DNA of 64,000 bases from Actinocorallia herbida (GTDB lineage: Bacteria; Actinomycetota; Actinomycetes; Streptosporangiales; Streptosporangiaceae), in assembly GCF_003751225.1 (NCBI RefSeq), contig NZ_RJKE01000001.1, positions 7,378,001-7,442,000 on the forward strand, read 5' to 3'. The notes below the pieces were generated by a model, which worked only from the letters and a program-made list of their open reading frames with translations, was not told the origin of the DNA and made no database searches. Within the stretch, counting starts at the first letter, position 1, and each line of letters begins with the position of its first letter. Shown in pieces: positions 2,583 to 41,519 of the stretch. Made by a program: the position numbers and the translations under genes.

Positions 2583-3521
2583 ATGGAACTCGACGCCCGG
2601 CGCCTCCGTGTCCTGCACACCGTCGCGGTCCGGGGCGGGGTGACCGCCGCGGCCGACACCTTGTGCGTCTCGCCTTCCGCGGTCAGCCAGCAGCTCTCCC
2701 TTCTGGAGCGGGAGGCGGGCTGCGACCTCGTGGAGCGGGTCGGCCGCGGCGTCGCGCTGACCCCGGCAGGACGAGCCCTCGCGTCGGCGGCCGAAGAGGT
2801 GCTGCACGCGCTCGACCGCGCGGAGGCCGCTCTGGCGGCGGCGCGCAAGGGGATCGGCGGAACCGTCCGGGTGAGCGCCTTCCCGAGCGCGGCCCGCGCC
2901 TTGGTCGCGCCCGCGGTGGCGCGTACGTTGCGCCGCCATCCGGACCTCGACGTGCGCGTCGGCGAGGGCGAGGACGGCCAGGGCCTCGCCGATCTGAGGC
3001 TCGCCGCCGTCGACGTTGTCATCGCGCAGGAGTACGACCACGTCCCGGTGGACTTCCCTACGGGACTCGTCCGGCACGCTCTCATTCGCGACCCCCTGCA
3101 CCTCTGCGTACCGGCGTCGGGGCCGCTCGCGGGGGCGTCGTCGCTGGAGGACCTGCGTGACGCCCGGTGGATGGCGGCGGCGCCCGGCACCCCGTGCGGG
3201 GACTCCACCCGGCAGGCCTGCCATGACGCGGGCTTCTCCCCCGACGTACGCCACTCCGTCATGGACTTCGCCTTGGCCCTCGACCTCGTCGCCGAAGGTC
3301 TCGGCGTCGCGCTGATCCCCGGGCTGGGCCTGCGCGACCTTCCCGAGGGCGTCGTCACCGCGCCCACCGCGCACGCGCGGACGATCTACGCGCTGACCCG
3401 GGAGCCGGGCGTCGGCCCCGTCCGCCCGGCCGTCGCGGCGTTCCTCGGCGAGCTGCTGGGACGTCAGCCTTCGGCGGCCCGGGGGTCGGCCGGCAGGGCC
3501 CGTGCCGAGAACGAGGCGTAG
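2583..3521 (+). CDS. LysR-family transcriptional regulator, 312 aa
   Basis: The N-terminal winged helix-turn-helix (residues 1-60) has the LysR pattern: LRVLHTVAVRGGVTAAADTL, then PSAVSQQLSLLEREAG and VERVGRGVALTPAGRAL. The linker helix and a two-lobe periplasmic-binding-like effector domain (about residues 90-295) follow, ending with GLGVALIPGLGL. Length is normal for the family. It is divergent from the eamA-type exporter and most likely controls it and itself. The start fits a probable leaderless promoter. The 3' end overlaps the convergent MFS gene by 58 bp. Confidence 0.9.
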   Translation: MELDARRLRVLHTVAVRGGVTAAADTLCVSPSAVSQQLSLLEREAGCDLVERVGRGVALTPAGRALASAAEEVLHALDRAEAALAAARKGIGGTVRVSAFPSAARALVAPAVARTLRRHPDLDVRVGEGEDGQGLADLRLAAVDVVIAQEYDHVPVDFPTGLVRHALIRDPLHLCVPASGPLAGASSLEDLRDARWMAAAPGTPCGDSTRQACHDAGFSPDVRHSVMDFALALDLVAEGLGVALIPGLGLRDLPEGVVTAPTAHARTIYALTREPGVGPVRPAVAAFLGELLGRQPSAARGSAGRARAENEA

Positions 3522-36321: not shown

Positions 36322-36930
36322 TCAGCGGGGGGTGAGGGCGGCGTGGACTATGACGTTGTCGCGGTAGGAGCCGCGGGTGTGGTCGAAGGTGCCGCCGCAG
36401 GTGATGAGGCGGAGCTCGGGGGCTGCGGTGGGGCGGTAGACGGAGTCGGGGACGTCGGTCTTAGGGTGGCGTTCCAGGTGGTGGACGGTGAAGGAGACCG
36501 TCTGGCCCTGGTCGGTGTCGACGTAGACGCGGGTGCCGGGGGTGAGGTCGGCCAGCCGGTAGAAGACGGCAGGGCCGGACGCGGAGTCGACGTGTCCGGC
36601 GATGACCGCCGCGCCGCGCTCGCCGGGTTCCGGGCCGGCGCGATTCCACCCCGCGACATCGAAGCGCCGGGGAGCGATGAGCTGGTGCCGCCGGTCCAGG
36701 CGCAGCGGGATCAGCGAGGTCGACAGGCCGACCGCCGGGATGCGCAACCGCACCGGGTCGCCGACCTTCGGGGCGGAGGTGGGCGCCCCGGCCTCGGACC
36801 GCACGGCAGGGGCCGCGAGTCCCTTCTCCATGGCCCTGCCGCCCATCGGCACGCACCCGGCGAGCGGCACCGCCCAGACGACCGCGGCCCAGATCCGCAG
36901 GACCCGTCGTACCCGTCGTCGCACCGTCAC
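36322..36930 (-). CDS. class F-like sortase, about 202 aa
   Basis: A cysteine transpeptidase that links surface proteins to the cell wall. The catalytic triad residues are visible as AGHVDSASGPAVFYRL (His), RLITCGGTFD (Cys) and GSYRDNVIV (Arg). RIPAVGLSTSLIPL is the usual N-terminal strand of class F enzymes. The N-terminus is basic, then hydrophobic, and ends in PLAGC, a good lipobox with Cys 26 (if GTG 36930 is the start), so the sortase may be lipid-anchored. An Asp-rich surface protein with a sorting-like C-terminus is encoded 285 bp upstream. Confidence 0.85.
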   Translation of the reverse strand: MTVRRRVRRVLRIWAAVVWAVPLAGCVPMGGRAMEKGLAAPAVRSEAGAPTSAPKVGDPVRLRIPAVGLSTSLIPLRLDRRHQLIAPRRFDVAGWNRAGPEPGERGAAVIAGHVDSASGPAVFYRLADLTPGTRVYVDTDQGQTVSFTVHHLERHPKTDVPDSVYRPTAAPELRLITCGGTFDHTRGSYRDNVIVHAALTPR

Positions 36931-37161
36931 GGCGTCGCCGTCTGTCCGGGCGGCCGGGCCCCGCAACCCGGTTGTGGGCGCCGTCGCGCAGGGGCCGGGC
37001 GGCCCGTCCCGCCGGCAGGGGATCCCTCGACCTCGTCCGAGGCCCACGGGAGAAGGCCCAGATGTGCCGGGTCGGTCCCGCGCGACACACAGGACATGGC
37101 GTCGGGAGGGGAGGCCCGGAGGGCGGGAGCGTTCGGCTCAGGGGGCGGATGAGGGAAAGCG

Positions 37162-37215: not shown

Positions 37216-37902
37216 TCAGGAGGTTCCGGTGAAACGTCGCAGGAAGTAGACGCCGACGCCCGCTGCGAGGACGAGGCTCAGCCCGAGCGGGGCCAGGACT
37301 CCCGCGCTGGTGAAGTCGAAGGCGGTGCCGCCGGCGCCCGTGTCGACGCCGCCGACCGGAACCCGGTCGTCGGTGTCGTCGCCGGACCGGCCGTCATCGT
37401 CCGCGCCCCGGCCGCCGTCATCGCCAGCCCCGCGCTGGGCCGGGGCTCCGCCGGTCGCGGCGCCGCCGGACGTCGCGGGAGCGCTCGGCGAGGTCGAGGC
37501 GCCGCCCGTGCGGTCGTCGCTCTGGTCGTCGTCCCGGTCGTCCCGGTCGTCTCCCGGCTCGTCCCGGTCGTCGCGGTCCACCTCGCCGCCCTTGTCGTCG
37601 CCGCGGTCGTCCCCGCTGTCGTCTCGTCCGTCCCCGCTGTCGTCCCGGTCGTCTCCCGGCTCATCGCGGTCGTCGCGGTCCACCTCGCCGCCCTTGTCGT
37701 CGCCGCGGTCATCGCCGCTGTCGTCTCGGTCGTCGTCTCGGTCGTCGTGTCGGCCATCGTCGTCGTCACCGTCGTCCGCGTGGGCGGCGGAGGCGGACAG
37801 CGGCGAGAAGGCGGACGGTCCGGCGGGCAGGACCGCGCCGAGCGAGGTCAGCCCGAAGGTGAGGGCGAGGGCGAGCAACGCCCGCTGGAACAGAAGGGTC
37901 AC
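37216..37902 (-). CDS. secreted Asp-rich repeat surface protein with sorting-like C-terminus, 228 aa
   Basis: The GTG start has GGAAGG 6 nt upstream. A signal peptide of about 42 residues ends in SAAHA. Residues about 43-130 are almost only Asp, Arg, Gly, Glu and Lys, with a 34-residue repeat (units such as DDSGDDRGDDKGGEVDRDD). A Gly/Ala/Ser region follows. The C-terminus reads VPVGGVDTGAGG, then a hydrophobic helix (LAPLGLSLVLAAGVGVYFL) and RRF, the three-part layout of a sortase signal, but with GVDTG in place of LPxTG. The adjacent class F sortase is the natural partner. The acidic repeats may bind cations. Confidence 0.75.
   Translation of the reverse strand: MTLLFQRALLALALTFGLTSLGAVLPAGPSAFSPLSASAAHADDGDDDDGRHDDRDDDRDDSGDDRGDDKGGEVDRDDRDEPGDDRDDSGDGRDDSGDDRGDDKGGEVDRDDRDEPGDDRDDRDDDQSDDRTGGASTSPSAPATSGGAATGGAPAQRGAGDDGGRGADDDGRSGDDTDDRVPVGGVDTGAGGTAFDFTSAGVLAPLGLSLVLAAGVGVYFLRRFTGTS
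37544..37727. repeat. 102-bp coding tandem repeat
   Basis: Copy 1 (37544-37645) and a partial copy 2 (37646 to about 37727) are nearly identical with a period of 102 bp (34 codons). They lie within the Asp-rich segment of the surface protein. Because the period is a multiple of three, copy-number change would keep the frame. Confidence 0.8.
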
Positions 37903-37985
37903 GGTGGCCTTCCCTGGATCTCCGCCCGGTCCTTCCGGGCTTGGTTCCAGGTTCCGGTCGAGCCGTGGAACGTGGATGAGGCCGC

Positions 37986-38003
37986 GATGAGAGCCCTCTC
38001 ATC
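37986..38003. promoter_or_regulatory. GATGAGA-N4-TCTCATC operator, copy 1 (surface protein gene)
   Basis: GATGAGA (37986-37992) and TCTCATC (37997-38003) are exact 7-bp inverted arms with a 4-bp spacer (GCCC). The site lies 84 bp before the GTG of the surface protein gene and just after the response-regulator stop. An identical-arm copy precedes the two-component operon. It is most likely the binding site of the response regulator encoded next to it. Confidence 0.75.
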
Positions 38004-38014
38004 CGCGGGGAGGC

Positions 38015-38695
38015 CTACGCGCCCGCTTCCGGCCCCAGGGGGCGGAGCCGGTAGCCGGTGCCGCGGATCGTCTCGATGCGTGCCGCGCCCAGCTTGCGCC
38101 GCAGGTACCGGATGTAGACGTCGACGACGTTGGAGCCCGGATCGAAGTCGAAGCCCCACACGTGGCTGAGGAGCTGCTCACGCGTGAGGACCTGGTCGGG
38201 GTGCCGGCAGAGGAACTCCGCCAGAGCGAACTCCCGGCTCGAGAGCTCCACGGTACGGCCGCCCGCGCGAGCACGGCGGGTGCGCAGATCGAGGGCGAGA
38301 TCCCCGACGGTCAGCACGGTCGCCTCGGGCGCGCGTTCCGGCCGCAGCCGCAGCCGGATGCGGGCCAGCAGTTCCTCGAACGCGAACGGCTTGGCGAGGT
38401 AGTCGTCGGCGCCGCTCTCCAACCCGGTGACGGTGTCGGCGACGCCGCCCCGCGCGGTGAGGATGACGACGGGCAGGGTCACCCGTGCCTCCCTCAGCAT
38501 CCGCAGCACGGTGAGCCCGTCGCGGCCGGGCAGGCCGAGGTCGAGGACGAGCAGGTCGAACTGTCCGCTGAGCGCCAGCTCGTGGGCGCTCAGCCCGTCC
38601 TCGACGACCGTCGTGACGAAGCCGTGCCGCCGGAGCCCCTTGTCCAGAAAGGAAGCGATGCGAGCTTCATCCTCAGCTATCAGAATACGGTTCAC
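38015..38695 (-). CDS. OmpR-family response regulator, 226 aa
   Basis: The receiver domain (1-115) has the acidic pocket AEDE, the phospho-acceptor Asp 52 in LLVLDLGLPGRDGL, the conserved Thr in VVILTARGG and the Lys in YLAKPFAFEEL. The winged helix (about 125-222) has the OmpR/PhoB pattern ELSSREFALAEFL, LTREQLLSHVWGFDFDPGSN, then VDVYIRYLRRKLG and IRGTGYRL. ATG 38695 lies 23 bp inside the end of the histidine-kinase gene, so the two are coupled. It probably binds the GATGAGA inverted repeats beside it. Confidence 0.93.
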   Translation of the reverse strand: MNRILIAEDEARIASFLDKGLRRHGFVTTVVEDGLSAHELALSGQFDLLVLDLGLPGRDGLTVLRMLREARVTLPVVILTARGGVADTVTGLESGADDYLAKPFAFEELLARIRLRLRPERAPEATVLTVGDLALDLRTRRARAGGRTVELSSREFALAEFLCRHPDQVLTREQLLSHVWGFDFDPGSNVVDVYIRYLRRKLGAARIETIRGTGYRLRPLGPEAGA

Positions 38696-40055
38696 CAGGC
38701 TCGCCCGTCTCGTAGGCCGGAATGCCGATCAGGAAGACGGCTCCGCCGCCGGGCGCGTCGCGGACCTCGGCGCGGCCGCCGTGCGCCGCGGCGATGCGGG
38801 CGACGATGGCGAGCCCGAGGCCGGTACCGGTCTGCGCGCCGTGGACGAAGCGCCGGAAGATCCGGTCGCGCTGGTCGGCGGGGACACCGGGGCCGTCGTC
38901 GCGGACCCACAGCTCCAGCTCCGGCCCGCGCAGGGCCGACCCGACGGAGATCCGTCCGCCGTCGCGGGTGTGCCGGACCGCGTTGGCGACGAACTGGACG
39001 AGCGCCTGGGTCAGCCGCTGGCCGTCGGCGAGGACATGGGTGTCGGCGACCTCGTCGAGCCGCCAGGTCCGGTCGGCCAGGGTCCGCACCTTGGCCAGCA
39101 CGTCGACGGTCAGTTCGGCGACCGCGACCTCGCCGACGGTGAGGAATCCCGGCTGCTCCGAGCGCGCGAGCAGCAGCAGGTCGTCGACGATCCGGTTCAT
39201 CCGCCCGAGTTCGTCGAGGACGAGCGCGACGGTCTCCTCCCGGTCCTCCTCGCCCATCAGCTCCAGATGGCCGCGGACGACCGTGAGGGGGGTGCGCAGT
39301 TCGTGCCCGGCGTCGTCGAGGAACTCCCGCTGGGTGGCGAAAGCGCGCTCCAACCTGTCCAGCATGCGGTTGAACGTCCCGGCGAGAGCGGAGATGTCGT
39401 CGTCGCCGGGGACGTCGAGGCGGCGGCTCAGATCCGAGGAGTCGCTGATCCGCTCGGCGGTGGTCCGGACGAGCCGGACGGGCCGGAGTACCCGCCCGGC
39501 GACGAGCCACGCGGCGGCGCCCGCCACGCCGACGGCGAGCGCGGAGGTGAGCGCGAGGGAGCGCATCACGTCGGTGACCTCGCTGCGCTGCACGTCGTAG
39601 AAGACGGCCACTACGAGCGCCGCCTTACGCTCGTCGCCGGTGACGCGTACCGGCATCACGAGGTAGCGCACTTTCCCGAGATCGCTGGAGGCCCAACCGG
39701 TCTCGGGCTCGCTCGCGCCGCTCGCCTTGGCGATGAGCGCGTCGTCGATCTTGAGTTCGCCGTCGGACGGCCTGCCGGTGAACTGGTCGACCTTGCCGTT
39801 GACGACGCTGACGTACGTCTCGTGCCTGTCCGGCGCGGTCAGGCTGAGGTAGTCGTAGAGCAGGCTTCGGACATCGGTGACCGGCCCCGCCTTCGCCGCG
39901 AAGGTACGGAGTTTCTCCGCCTCATTGGCCAGTTCCTCGGCCACCCGCGCGTCGAGACGGTTCACCAGCAGCGACCAGGTGGCCGATCCGGCGACGGTGA
40001 GGGCGAGCGCGACGACCAGCAGGACCCAGGCGACGATCCTGGAGTGGGCGCTCAT
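38673..40055 (-). CDS. membrane sensor histidine kinase, 460 aa
   Basis: Transmembrane helix 1 (about 8-30) and helix 2 (about 165-188) enclose an extracellular domain of about 135 residues, followed by a HAMP domain (RVLRPVRLVRTTAERI). The phospho-acceptor His is in FLDDAGHELRTPLTVVRGHL. The ATP-binding domain shows the N box QFVANAVRHTRDGG, G1 VRDDGPGVPADQRDRIF and G2 GTGLGLAIVARI. It would phosphorylate the overlapping response regulator. The extracellular domain has no recognised fold by eye; nearby Asp-rich and DDHGG proteins hint at a cation or envelope signal. Confidence 0.92.
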   Translation of the reverse strand: MSAHSRIVAWVLLVVALALTVAGSATWSLLVNRLDARVAEELANEAEKLRTFAAKAGPVTDVRSLLYDYLSLTAPDRHETYVSVVNGKVDQFTGRPSDGELKIDDALIAKASGASEPETGWASSDLGKVRYLVMPVRVTGDERKAALVVAVFYDVQRSEVTDVMRSLALTSALAVGVAGAAAWLVAGRVLRPVRLVRTTAERISDSSDLSRRLDVPGDDDISALAGTFNRMLDRLERAFATQREFLDDAGHELRTPLTVVRGHLELMGEEDREETVALVLDELGRMNRIVDDLLLLARSEQPGFLTVGEVAVAELTVDVLAKVRTLADRTWRLDEVADTHVLADGQRLTQALVQFVANAVRHTRDGGRISVGSALRGPELELWVRDDGPGVPADQRDRIFRRFVHGAQTGTGLGLAIVARIAAAHGGRAEVRDAPGGGAVFLIGIPAYETGEPGEPYSDS

Positions 40056-40064
40056 GGGCGGGTC

Positions 40065-40361
40065 TCAGTCGGCATCGTCGCCACCGTGGTCGTCACCGGG
40101 CTCGACGCCGTCGTCGGCACCGCCGTGGTCGTCGGCCTTGTCGTCGCCGCCATGGTCGTCGGCGTCACGGGGAGGCGGAGGCGTCACGGGGTGCGCCGTC
40201 TCCGGCTCGTCCGTGGCCGAGGGGCCGGGGGTGGCCGTCACGACCACCAGAGGCCCGAGGGCCGGCGGTGCGACGCGCGCGGCCGCGACGAAGGCGTAGA
40301 CGGCGCCCAGGGTGAGGAGCACCGCCCCCACCACGGCGAGCAGCGGGCCGCGGATTCTCAT
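40065..40361 (-). CDS. small membrane protein with DDHGG-rich external tail, 98 aa
   Basis: One N-terminal helix (LLAVVGAVLLTLGAVYAFVA, about 6-25) is followed by a Pro/Thr/Ala linker and a C-terminal tail of repeated DDHGG-type units (DADDHGGDDKADDHGG and PGDDHGGDDAD). The tail would lie outside and could bind divalent metal ions. GGTGGG precedes the ATG. It is the first gene of the operon with the histidine kinase 9 bp downstream, so it may modulate the sensor or be a target gene. Confidence 0.7.
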   Translation of the reverse strand: MRIRGPLLAVVGAVLLTLGAVYAFVAAARVAPPALGPLVVVTATPGPSATDEPETAHPVTPPPPRDADDHGGDDKADDHGGADDGVEPGDDHGGDDAD

Positions 40362-40405
40362 GCGCCCACCGTAGGCACTCCCGCAGGTGGCGAACGCCGT
40401 AAAGC

Positions 40406-40423
40406 GATGAGAAACCTCTCATC
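40406..40423. promoter_or_regulatory. GATGAGA-N4-TCTCATC operator, copy 2 (two-component operon)
   Basis: GATGAGA (40406-40412), AACC and TCTCATC (40417-40423): the arms are identical to the copy at 37986-38003 and only the spacer differs. It is 45 bp before the ATG of the DDHGG protein, the first gene of the kinase/regulator operon, which implies autoregulation. Confidence 0.75.
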
Positions 40424-40442
40424 AGTCGAAACTCGGCGAAAT

Positions 40443-40482
40443 CACCGAAGGACGGCACCCGAACGGGCGCCGTCCTTCGGTG
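40443..40482 (-). terminator. terminator after hemE
   Basis: CACCGAAGGACGGC and GCCGTCCTTCGGTG form a perfect 14-bp stem with a 12-nt loop. It starts 5 nt after the hemE stop on the leftward strand and is followed by ATTTCG. It separates hemE from the two-component operon. Confidence 0.75.
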
Positions 40483-40487
40483 GGACC

Positions 40488-41519
40488 TCAGCGCGCGGAG
40501 ACCTCATGGACGAGGTCGGCCAGGCGGGCGAGCTGGTCGGGGTTCGTGTTCGGCAGCACGCCGTGGCCCAGGTTGAAGATGTGACCCTCGGCGACGCGGC
40601 CCTGCGCCAGCACCTGGCGGGCCCGCGGCTCGACGACCTCCCACGGGGCGAGCAGGATCGAGGGGTCGAGGTTGCCCTGGAGCGCCTTGCCCGGACCGAC
40701 GCGCCGCGCGGCGTCGTCCAGCGGGACGCGCCAGTCGACGCCGACGACGTCCGCGCCCGCCTCGCCCATCAGGCCGAGCAGCTCACCCGTCCCGACGCCG
40801 AAGTGGATGCGCGGGACGTCCGCCATCGCGGCGAAGATCTGCTCGCTGTAGGGCATCACGTAGCGCGTGTAGTCCTCGGGTGCGACGGCGCCGACCCAGC
40901 TGTCGAAGAGCTGGACGGCCCGGGCGCCTGCGGCCACCTGGGTACGCAGGAAGCCGATGGTGATCTCGGTGAGGGCGCTCATCAGCGACTGCCAGATGTC
41001 GGGCTCGCCGTACATGAGCGCCTTGGTGCGGTCATGGTTCTTCGACGGCCCGCCCTCGATGAGGTAGGAGGCGAGGGTGAAGGGGGCACCCGCGAAGCCG
41101 ATCAGAGGGATGTCGCCCAGCTCGGCCACCAGGCCCTTGACCGCCTCGGTGACGTAGGGGACGTCGTCGGAGGCGAGCGGGCGGAGCCGGGAGACGGCGT
41201 CCTTGTCGCGGATCGGGTCGGCGATCACGGGGCCGACGCCCGGCTTGATGTCGAGGTCGATGCCGATCGCCTTCAGCGGTACGACGATGTCGCTGAAGAA
41301 GATCGCGGCGTCGATCGCGTACCTGCGGACCGGCTGGAGCGTGATCTCGATGATCAGATCGGGATTCGCGCAGGACTCCAGCATCGGGATCCCCTCGCGT
41401 ACCCGCAGGTACTCGGGGAGGGAACGCCCGGCCTGGCGCATGAACCACACGGGCGTGTGGGAGACGGGCTCGCGGCGGCAGGCACGGAGGAACACCGGGT
41501 CTTCAGCGGGCATGTACAC
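40488..41519 (-). CDS. hemE: uroporphyrinogen decarboxylase, 343 aa
   Basis: Decarboxylates uroporphyrinogen III to coproporphyrinogen III. The family signature is [19 protein letters not shown] near the start, with [16 protein letters not shown]-like text as [33 protein letters not shown] and the [10 protein letters not shown] region. It feeds the hemY/hemQ pair 6.7 kb away. GTG 41519 or ATG 41513 may be the start. On the leftward strand a GATAAT box (41657-41652) in an AT-rich patch is the likely promoter. Confidence 0.95.

Follow-up and report, generated by a model that had tools for sequence, protein, structure and literature searches.

Relation to described two-component systems

For many two-component systems of actinobacteria, the signal, the operator or the set of targets is not known. 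Here, we analyzed a 64,000-nucleotide stretch of the Actinocorallia herbida genome (NZ_RJKE01000001.1, positions 7,378,001–7,442,000; hereafter the window), in which two exact copies of the palindrome GATGAGA-N4-TCTCATC bracket an operon for a small membrane protein, a sensor histidine kinase and an OmpR/PhoB-type response regulator. Both palindromes are very probably operators of the regulator encoded between them. Among the closest described systems is PhoP of Mycobacterium tuberculosis, a member of the same OmpR/PhoB family, whose operator is described as a direct repeat of two 7-bp motifs with a strict 4-bp spacer (PMC4832192). The present sites share with it the 7-bp half-sites, the 4-bp spacer and the 11-bp step, and the PhoP half-site TCACAGC agrees with TCTCATC in five of seven bases. 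In contrast to PhoP, the locus described here has a different operon, with a small partner gene for an acidic-tailed protein, and far fewer predicted sites in the genome. The proposed circuit works like a PhoP-type two-component circuit and its regulator is an OmpR/PhoB member by its domains, while its operator core is not of the PhoP type.

CutRS and CssRS of Streptomyces are likewise actinobacterial two-component systems with small envelope or secretion regulons, and the reported CutR consensus is TAWATAAA, with protease and amidase genes among the targets (PMC12802291). The conserved site does not fit this consensus, and membership in CutRS was rejected. MprAB of Corynebacterium glutamicum is, like the circuit proposed here, an autoregulated envelope system; it was set aside, as its reported motif (TKTTAAGAAM) and targets differ (PMC12113857). 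The best-scoring NCBIfam models for the regulator and the kinase are CztR/SilR/CopR (TIGR01387) and CztS/SilS/CopS (TIGR01386), respectively. Identity with these heavy-metal systems was rejected because the scores, 210.1 of 279.2 bits and 191 of 292.55 bits, fall far below the curated cut-offs. The MacRS palindrome reportedly also begins with TGAG and ends with CTCA. Among the matches listed for the openly licensed PubMed Central literature, no account of the circuit was found; the motif strings and their spaced variants returned no paper, and the papers listed for the unspaced arms were unrelated. The locus most likely represents a new autoregulated OmpR-type circuit with an acidic-tailed membrane partner.

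Two exact copies of the palindrome

Site 2 (GATGAGAAACCTCTCATC, 40406–40423) is the presumed operator upstream of the small-protein/kinase/regulator operon and ends 44 nt ahead of the ATG of the small gene. Site 1 (GATGAGAGCCCTCTCATC, 37986–38003), the other presumed operator, separates the regulator gene from the Asp-rich surface gene, 11 bases past the stop codon of the former and 83 bases ahead of the start of the latter. Neither site is assigned a strand, and site 1 is exact in all three genomes of the genus. The initial annotation had reported an 18-bp repeat with identical arms at these two positions, ahead of a surface-protein gene and of a membrane protein/kinase/regulator operon, with no further copy noticed in the window. 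Both copies are indeed exact, the description of the genes holds, with all of them on the minus strand, and a scan of the 9.8-Mb single-contig genome revealed no exact copy besides these two.

The number of exact copies expected in 9.8 Mb at the composition of the window is 0.003 for independent bases and 0.018 under a first-order Markov model. With up to three mismatches allowed, the window contains five matches (two exact, the others with two, three and three mismatches), compared with a mean of 1.16 in 100 shuffled windows, none of which reached five. A chance palindrome was set aside, given two exact copies against at most about 0.02 expected, together with the shuffle control. The crowd of random genome-wide matches that the initial annotation had named as a possible objection did not appear among exact hits. 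The scan yielded 22 further sites with two mismatches and a reversed control pattern yielded four matches; 17 of the 21 two-mismatch sites outside the window fall within mechanically called open reading frames (ORFs) rich in third-position GC (GC3). These two-mismatch sites look mostly like background.

Conservation of the site upstream of the operon

In a survey of 297 genomes of the family, the kinase was matched at E ≤ 1e-75 in 123, with at most five candidates scored per genome. We examined 89 family loci, comprising all 67 with a kinase identity of at least 49% (window included) and 22 of the other 56, and recorded the best palindrome match 700 to 100 bp upstream of the kinase gene. This match has 0, 1, 2, 3 and 4 mismatches in 42, 14, 8, 2 and 1 of the 67 loci, respectively. 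Thus, 64 of 67 orthologous upstream regions retain the motif with no more than two mismatches, the comparison that the initial annotation had proposed. For the same loci, the reversed pattern gives 5–7 mismatches, a stretch inside the kinase gene 3–6, and shuffled DNA 3–7. The exact motif occurs in 45 of the 123 family genomes with the kinase and in 4 of the 174 without it.

The spacing between the site and the operon is conserved as well. For the 72 loci whose site has no more than two mismatches, a search 40–49 nt past the site places a start codon at 43, 44 and 45 nt in 17, 41 and 8 loci, respectively, and at 40 nt in one; five have none in this range. When every ATG within 90 nt past the site is counted, 66 fall at 43–45 nt, while the next commonest position has 12. 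An acidic-tailed small ORF heads the operon in 84 of the 89 loci. A TANNNT element lies 6–7 nt ahead of the start in 16 of the 67 loci with a start 40–49 nt past the site; in the window, it is the putative −10 element TACGGT (40368–40373, minus strand), six bases ahead of the ATG, which suggests that the operon promoter is leaderless.

Second site and alternating target genes

A second site was sought from −40 to +120 of the regulator stop codon in the 89 loci, at up to three mismatches. It is present in 21 of 29 loci with a downstream Asp-rich GGVxTGxG protein, in 23 of 29 DUF4956 loci (VTC is also in the locus; both were identified by Pfam in L096) and in three of four loci with an SLC13-type transporter. 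Overall, 47 of the 62 loci with a recognized target gene carry the second site, compared with 4 of the 24 with none of the three target kinds; no regulator was found in three further loci. Among the four exceptions, L110 has an Asp-rich ORF missed by the pattern and L117 stops at the contig end. The second site accompanies the target gene rather than the regulator alone.

The sortase follows one of these target kinds, with matches in 27 of the 29 loci of the surface type, none of the 29 of the DUF4956 type and 2 of 31 others. In L139 (genome G283), the 246-aa product of an ORF behind the regulator gene contains both three Asp-rich GGVxTGAGG repeats and a class F-like sortase domain; this natural fusion supports the sortase and the Asp-rich protein working together.

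Nine exact sites in the family lie outside the operon loci. They precede a transporter in L179 (Pfam CitMHS and Na_sulph_symp; labeled SLC13-type), a DUF4956 gene in L186 (by Pfam) and L187 (by likeness), and an Asp-rich ORF in L181. The site in L184 (genome G185, 3001–3018) lies 105 nt ahead of a different histidine kinase, in a genome without a kinase match at 1e-75, and that in L185 is at the start of a DUF308 ORF; those in L180, L182 and L183 look like chance. The self-contained regulon postulated by the initial annotation fits this genome, in which the surface protein is the only GVDTG match at E ≤ 0.001, but not its relatives, where the site also precedes DUF4956–VTC, SLC13-type and other genes. 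DUF4956 was not found in this genome, and this target class therefore does not apply here.

Class-wide distribution

Of 394 genomes surveyed across the class, 49 contain the exact motif and none contains the reversed control. The kinase is matched at E ≤ 1e-75 in 102 of these genomes; 33 of the 102 contain the exact motif, compared with 16 of the 292 others. At 40 class loci around exact sites, the kinase and/or the regulator adjoins the site in 23 and the regulator in 22; in at least 10 of these, the site is followed by a small ORF with an acidic tail. In L225, at a second exact site, and in L251, within the same intergenic region, a gene whose end resembles a sorting signal is divergently oriented. 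Four genomes of genus g103 (L237, L239, L242 and L244) have in common an unlinked exact site between two divergent genes; in L239, Pfam identifies one of them as an APH-like phosphotransferase and the other as a UDP-glucose/GDP-mannose dehydrogenase. L219 has a second site flanked by an APH-like gene and a CNNM/CorC gene. The remaining class loci include probable chance matches, such as one ahead of ribosomal protein L13.

Extended structure of the element

The initial annotation had described the element as an 18-bp inverted repeat. This core is right, but the element is longer in many relatives and at site 1, where a third half-site, CCTCATC (37975–37981, minus strand), follows 11 bp after the second half. 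Among 21 non-redundant second sites in an alignment, all have TCA in the third half-site and up to 19 have CTCA. It is weaker upstream of the operon, where its T, C and A bases occur in 26, 29 and 26 of 35 sequences, and a fourth, weaker half-site is present. Consecutive half-sites are 11 bp apart, through the 7 + 4 bp core in the window and through 11-bp steps in the relatives, in keeping with the spacing of about one helical turn (10–11 bp) in the OmpR/PhoB family. The full element is an inverted pair, to which direct half-sites one turn apart are often added. Regulator molecules would occupy all of these half-sites.

Covariation with the regulator recognition helix

The regulator (38015–38695, minus strand) has the recognition helix NVVDVYIRYLRRK, which includes Tyr197. 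The bases of the half-site differ with the residue at this position. In 77 family loci with one clear site (nine others, whose sites were tied or weak, were set aside), the pair A/T at motif positions 7/12 is found for 59 of 62 Tyr197 regulators and for 0 of 15 with Ala or Ser. Half-site bases 1–2 are TC in both halves for 58 of 62 and 0 of 15, and base 2 is other than C for 2 of 62 and 11 of 15, respectively. A second sample comprised 20 class-level orthologs from the 69 kinase genomes without an exact motif, two of which gave no residue; in their best candidates, A/T occupies positions 7/12 for seven of nine Tyr regulators and 0 of nine with Ala or Thr. Tyr is also present in each of the 22 regulators that adjoin exact sites in the class survey.

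A structural reason, independent of these counts, that the local regulator would read the site comes from PhoP. In the PhoP–DNA structure, Tyr220 forms a hydrogen bond with base 2 of the TCACAGC half-site, and Tyr217 makes contact with the first two bases (PMC4832192). Asn212, Val213, Tyr217, Tyr220, Arg222 and Arg223 of PhoP correspond to Asn189, Val190, Tyr194, Tyr197, Arg199 and Arg200 of the present regulator with a constant offset of 23, making Tyr197 the equivalent of PhoP Tyr220.

Genus g85, whose abundance suggests, as a guess, Streptomyces, has no exact motif in the class survey. Among its 10 examined loci, the best candidate has the right half CTTCAT or GTTCAT in eight, is of the TGAGA type in L279, and is absent in one. 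The genome of L279 has two kinases of the present family (the other at G603:C15:4400-5800), and the examined one stands beside a Tyr197 regulator and the TGAGA-type site, unlike the other g85 loci.

Genes of the locus

The first gene of the operon (40065–40361, minus strand) was read from the ORF as encoding a 98-aa protein with an N-terminal hydrophobic segment, a Pro-rich linker and an Asp-rich C-terminal tail; it has no Pfam or NCBIfam match. An acidic-tailed protein of this kind is a plausible kinase partner. The sensor histidine kinase follows (38673–40055, minus strand), with HAMP, HisKA and HATPase_c domains by Pfam and a PAS-like extracytoplasmic sensor domain in the structure model. 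The model of the sensor half has a mean predicted local distance difference test (pLDDT) score of 87.6 and shows similarity to the sensors of WalK and KinD and weak similarity to the zinc sensor CzcS. It fits a sensor of a ligand or a partner protein and names no ligand. A search with the kinase identified one named relative, Actinocorallia sp. API 0066, whose kinase is 82% identical. In the regulator, the receiver and Trans_reg_C domains score above the Pfam gathering scores, as do HisKA and HATPase_c in the adjoining kinase, which places the regulator in the OmpR/PhoB family.

Downstream of site 1, the surface protein (37216–37902, minus strand) has Asp at 56 of 228 residues and matches the NCBIfam GVDTG sorting domain (NF058571) with 43.4 bits against a cut-off of 29. 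The neighboring class F-like sortase (36322–37047, minus strand), which is presumed to anchor this protein, passes the Pfam Sortase cut-off and scores 164.1 bits against the NCBIfam class F model NF033748, with a cut-off of 166. The locus thus resembles described GVDTG-sorted proteins in having this domain above the cut-off and a class F-like sortase adjoining, and differs from them in its very high Asp content and in the GGVxTGxG unit that relatives repeat. In L097, L112 and L126, downstream of the regulator, this unit recurs up to seven times between runs of Asp; the window protein has one. The repeated form might offer several sortase cleavage points. On the other side of the operon, a GC-rich hairpin (ACCGAAGGACGGC...GCCGTCCTTCGGT, 40443–40483) was recognized by eye just downstream of the hemE stop codon. 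It perhaps marks the transcription end of hemE, separating this gene from site 2.

Proposed circuit and alternative explanations

In the proposed circuit, a signal would be sensed by the kinase, probably with the participation of the acidic-tailed membrane protein from its operon. The phosphorylated regulator would then bind pairs of the 7-bp half-sites (TCTCATC), 11 bp apart, reinforcing its own operon from a position centered about 54 bp upstream of the start codon and switching on the Asp-rich surface protein, which the adjoining class F-like sortase would anchor to the wall. The initial annotation had likewise predicted binding at both sites, control of the operon by its own regulator and induction of the surface protein, a reading that the comparisons support, with induction presumed. 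Indirect evidence that the neighboring regulator reads the site comes from its occurrence with the kinase–regulator operon across families and from the covariation of half-site bases 1–2 with a recognition-helix residue whose PhoP counterpart contacts base 2.

Several observations weigh against this assignment. The relatives are not independent, and the Fisher values for the association of motif and kinase overstate its certainty. The covariation likewise amounts to one event in many descendants, since the regulator tree (helix column included) places the non-Tyr state in one clade with one change (support 96/93), indicating that the switch from Tyr to Ala, Ser or Thr arose once; it was therefore counted as supporting only. 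The loci set aside include six with Tyr; for at least two of these (L147 and L149), the better candidate carries G at position 7. The spacer agrees with that of PhoP, but the conserved core pair is inverted here, whereas PhoP reads direct repeats. Site 2 in the window has no third half-site; consequently, the absence of a CTCA third half-site on either side of all 21 two-mismatch sites outside the window (both strands checked) does not discriminate between site 2 and background. At the threshold used, the second site is missing from 15 of the 62 target-gene loci, and 17 of the 19 closer DUF4956 loci have it with two or three mismatches. No sigma-70 consensus promoter was found. Finally, four family and 16 class genomes contain the exact motif without a kinase match at 1e-75.

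These last 20 genomes would be accounted for if the palindromes were real operators read mainly by another regulator, such as a paralogous OmpR-type protein, with the local one merely a neighbor. The 36 related kinases matched in this genome and the exact site ahead of a different histidine kinase in L184 point the same way. However, the site associates with the present kinase–regulator pair across families, and the half-site bases differ with the recognition helix of the present regulator. Furthermore, some of the kinase misses are technical, given that only four or five candidates were scored per genome; L236 (genome G390) has the pair beside the site yet no listed match. We regard another principal reader as improbable. 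Still less credible is that the palindromes act as RNA hairpins in termination, processing or attenuation rather than as DNA operators, although each pair of arms could form a 7-bp stem with a 4-nt loop and site 1 follows the regulator stop codon so closely. No intrinsic terminator was detected in 37850–40520, and the separate hairpin seen by eye already follows hemE. Moreover, conservation extends to the sequence of the arms, substitutions in the right arm such as CCTAATC reduce the pairing while the one-strand half-sites beyond are kept, and an ATG stands at 43–45 nt past the upstream site.

The sign of the regulation is less secure. The regulator may bind both sites and repress the surface gene or the operon, as negative feedback; position alone does not settle this point, and Streptomyces CutR is reported both to activate and to repress (PMC12802291). 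Against repression, site 2 at its upstream position does not overlap the −10 element, an argument that depends on the putative promoter. Activators often bind at such a position upstream of a promoter. We consider repression unlikely, though with an appreciable chance of being correct, and activation of the operon and the surface gene through the two palindromes is the reading adopted here.

Outputs and significance

The outputs associated with the site, namely the poly-Asp surface protein, the VTC-type polymerase, the anion-transporter family and possibly the nucleotide-sugar dehydrogenase and CNNM, are linked to negative charge or ions. The VTC gene product beside DUF4956 is likely a polyphosphate-making enzyme. 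A response of the circuit to cations or cationic stress is a guess that we consider unlikely, though with an appreciable chance of being correct, and that its output supplies negative charge is a guess as well. A broader and similarly doubtful extension would be an actinobacteria-wide regulon in which a kinase and its acidic-tailed membrane partner detect cations or polycations, and which builds negative charge through interchangeable outputs: depending on the genus, Asp-rich wall-anchored proteins or a VTC-type polyphosphate polymerase and, in one genus, possibly a UDP-glucose/GDP-mannose dehydrogenase (for uronic-acid polymers) or a CNNM-type ion transporter.

These results assign a predicted operator and a proposed specificity residue to one kinase family, along with a short list of targets, which alternate from genus to genus. 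They also connect two apparently interchangeable outputs of a single circuit, a sortase-type poly-aspartate protein and a VTC-type polymerase, providing a concrete lead on the role of polyanionic surface or storage polymers in these bacteria.

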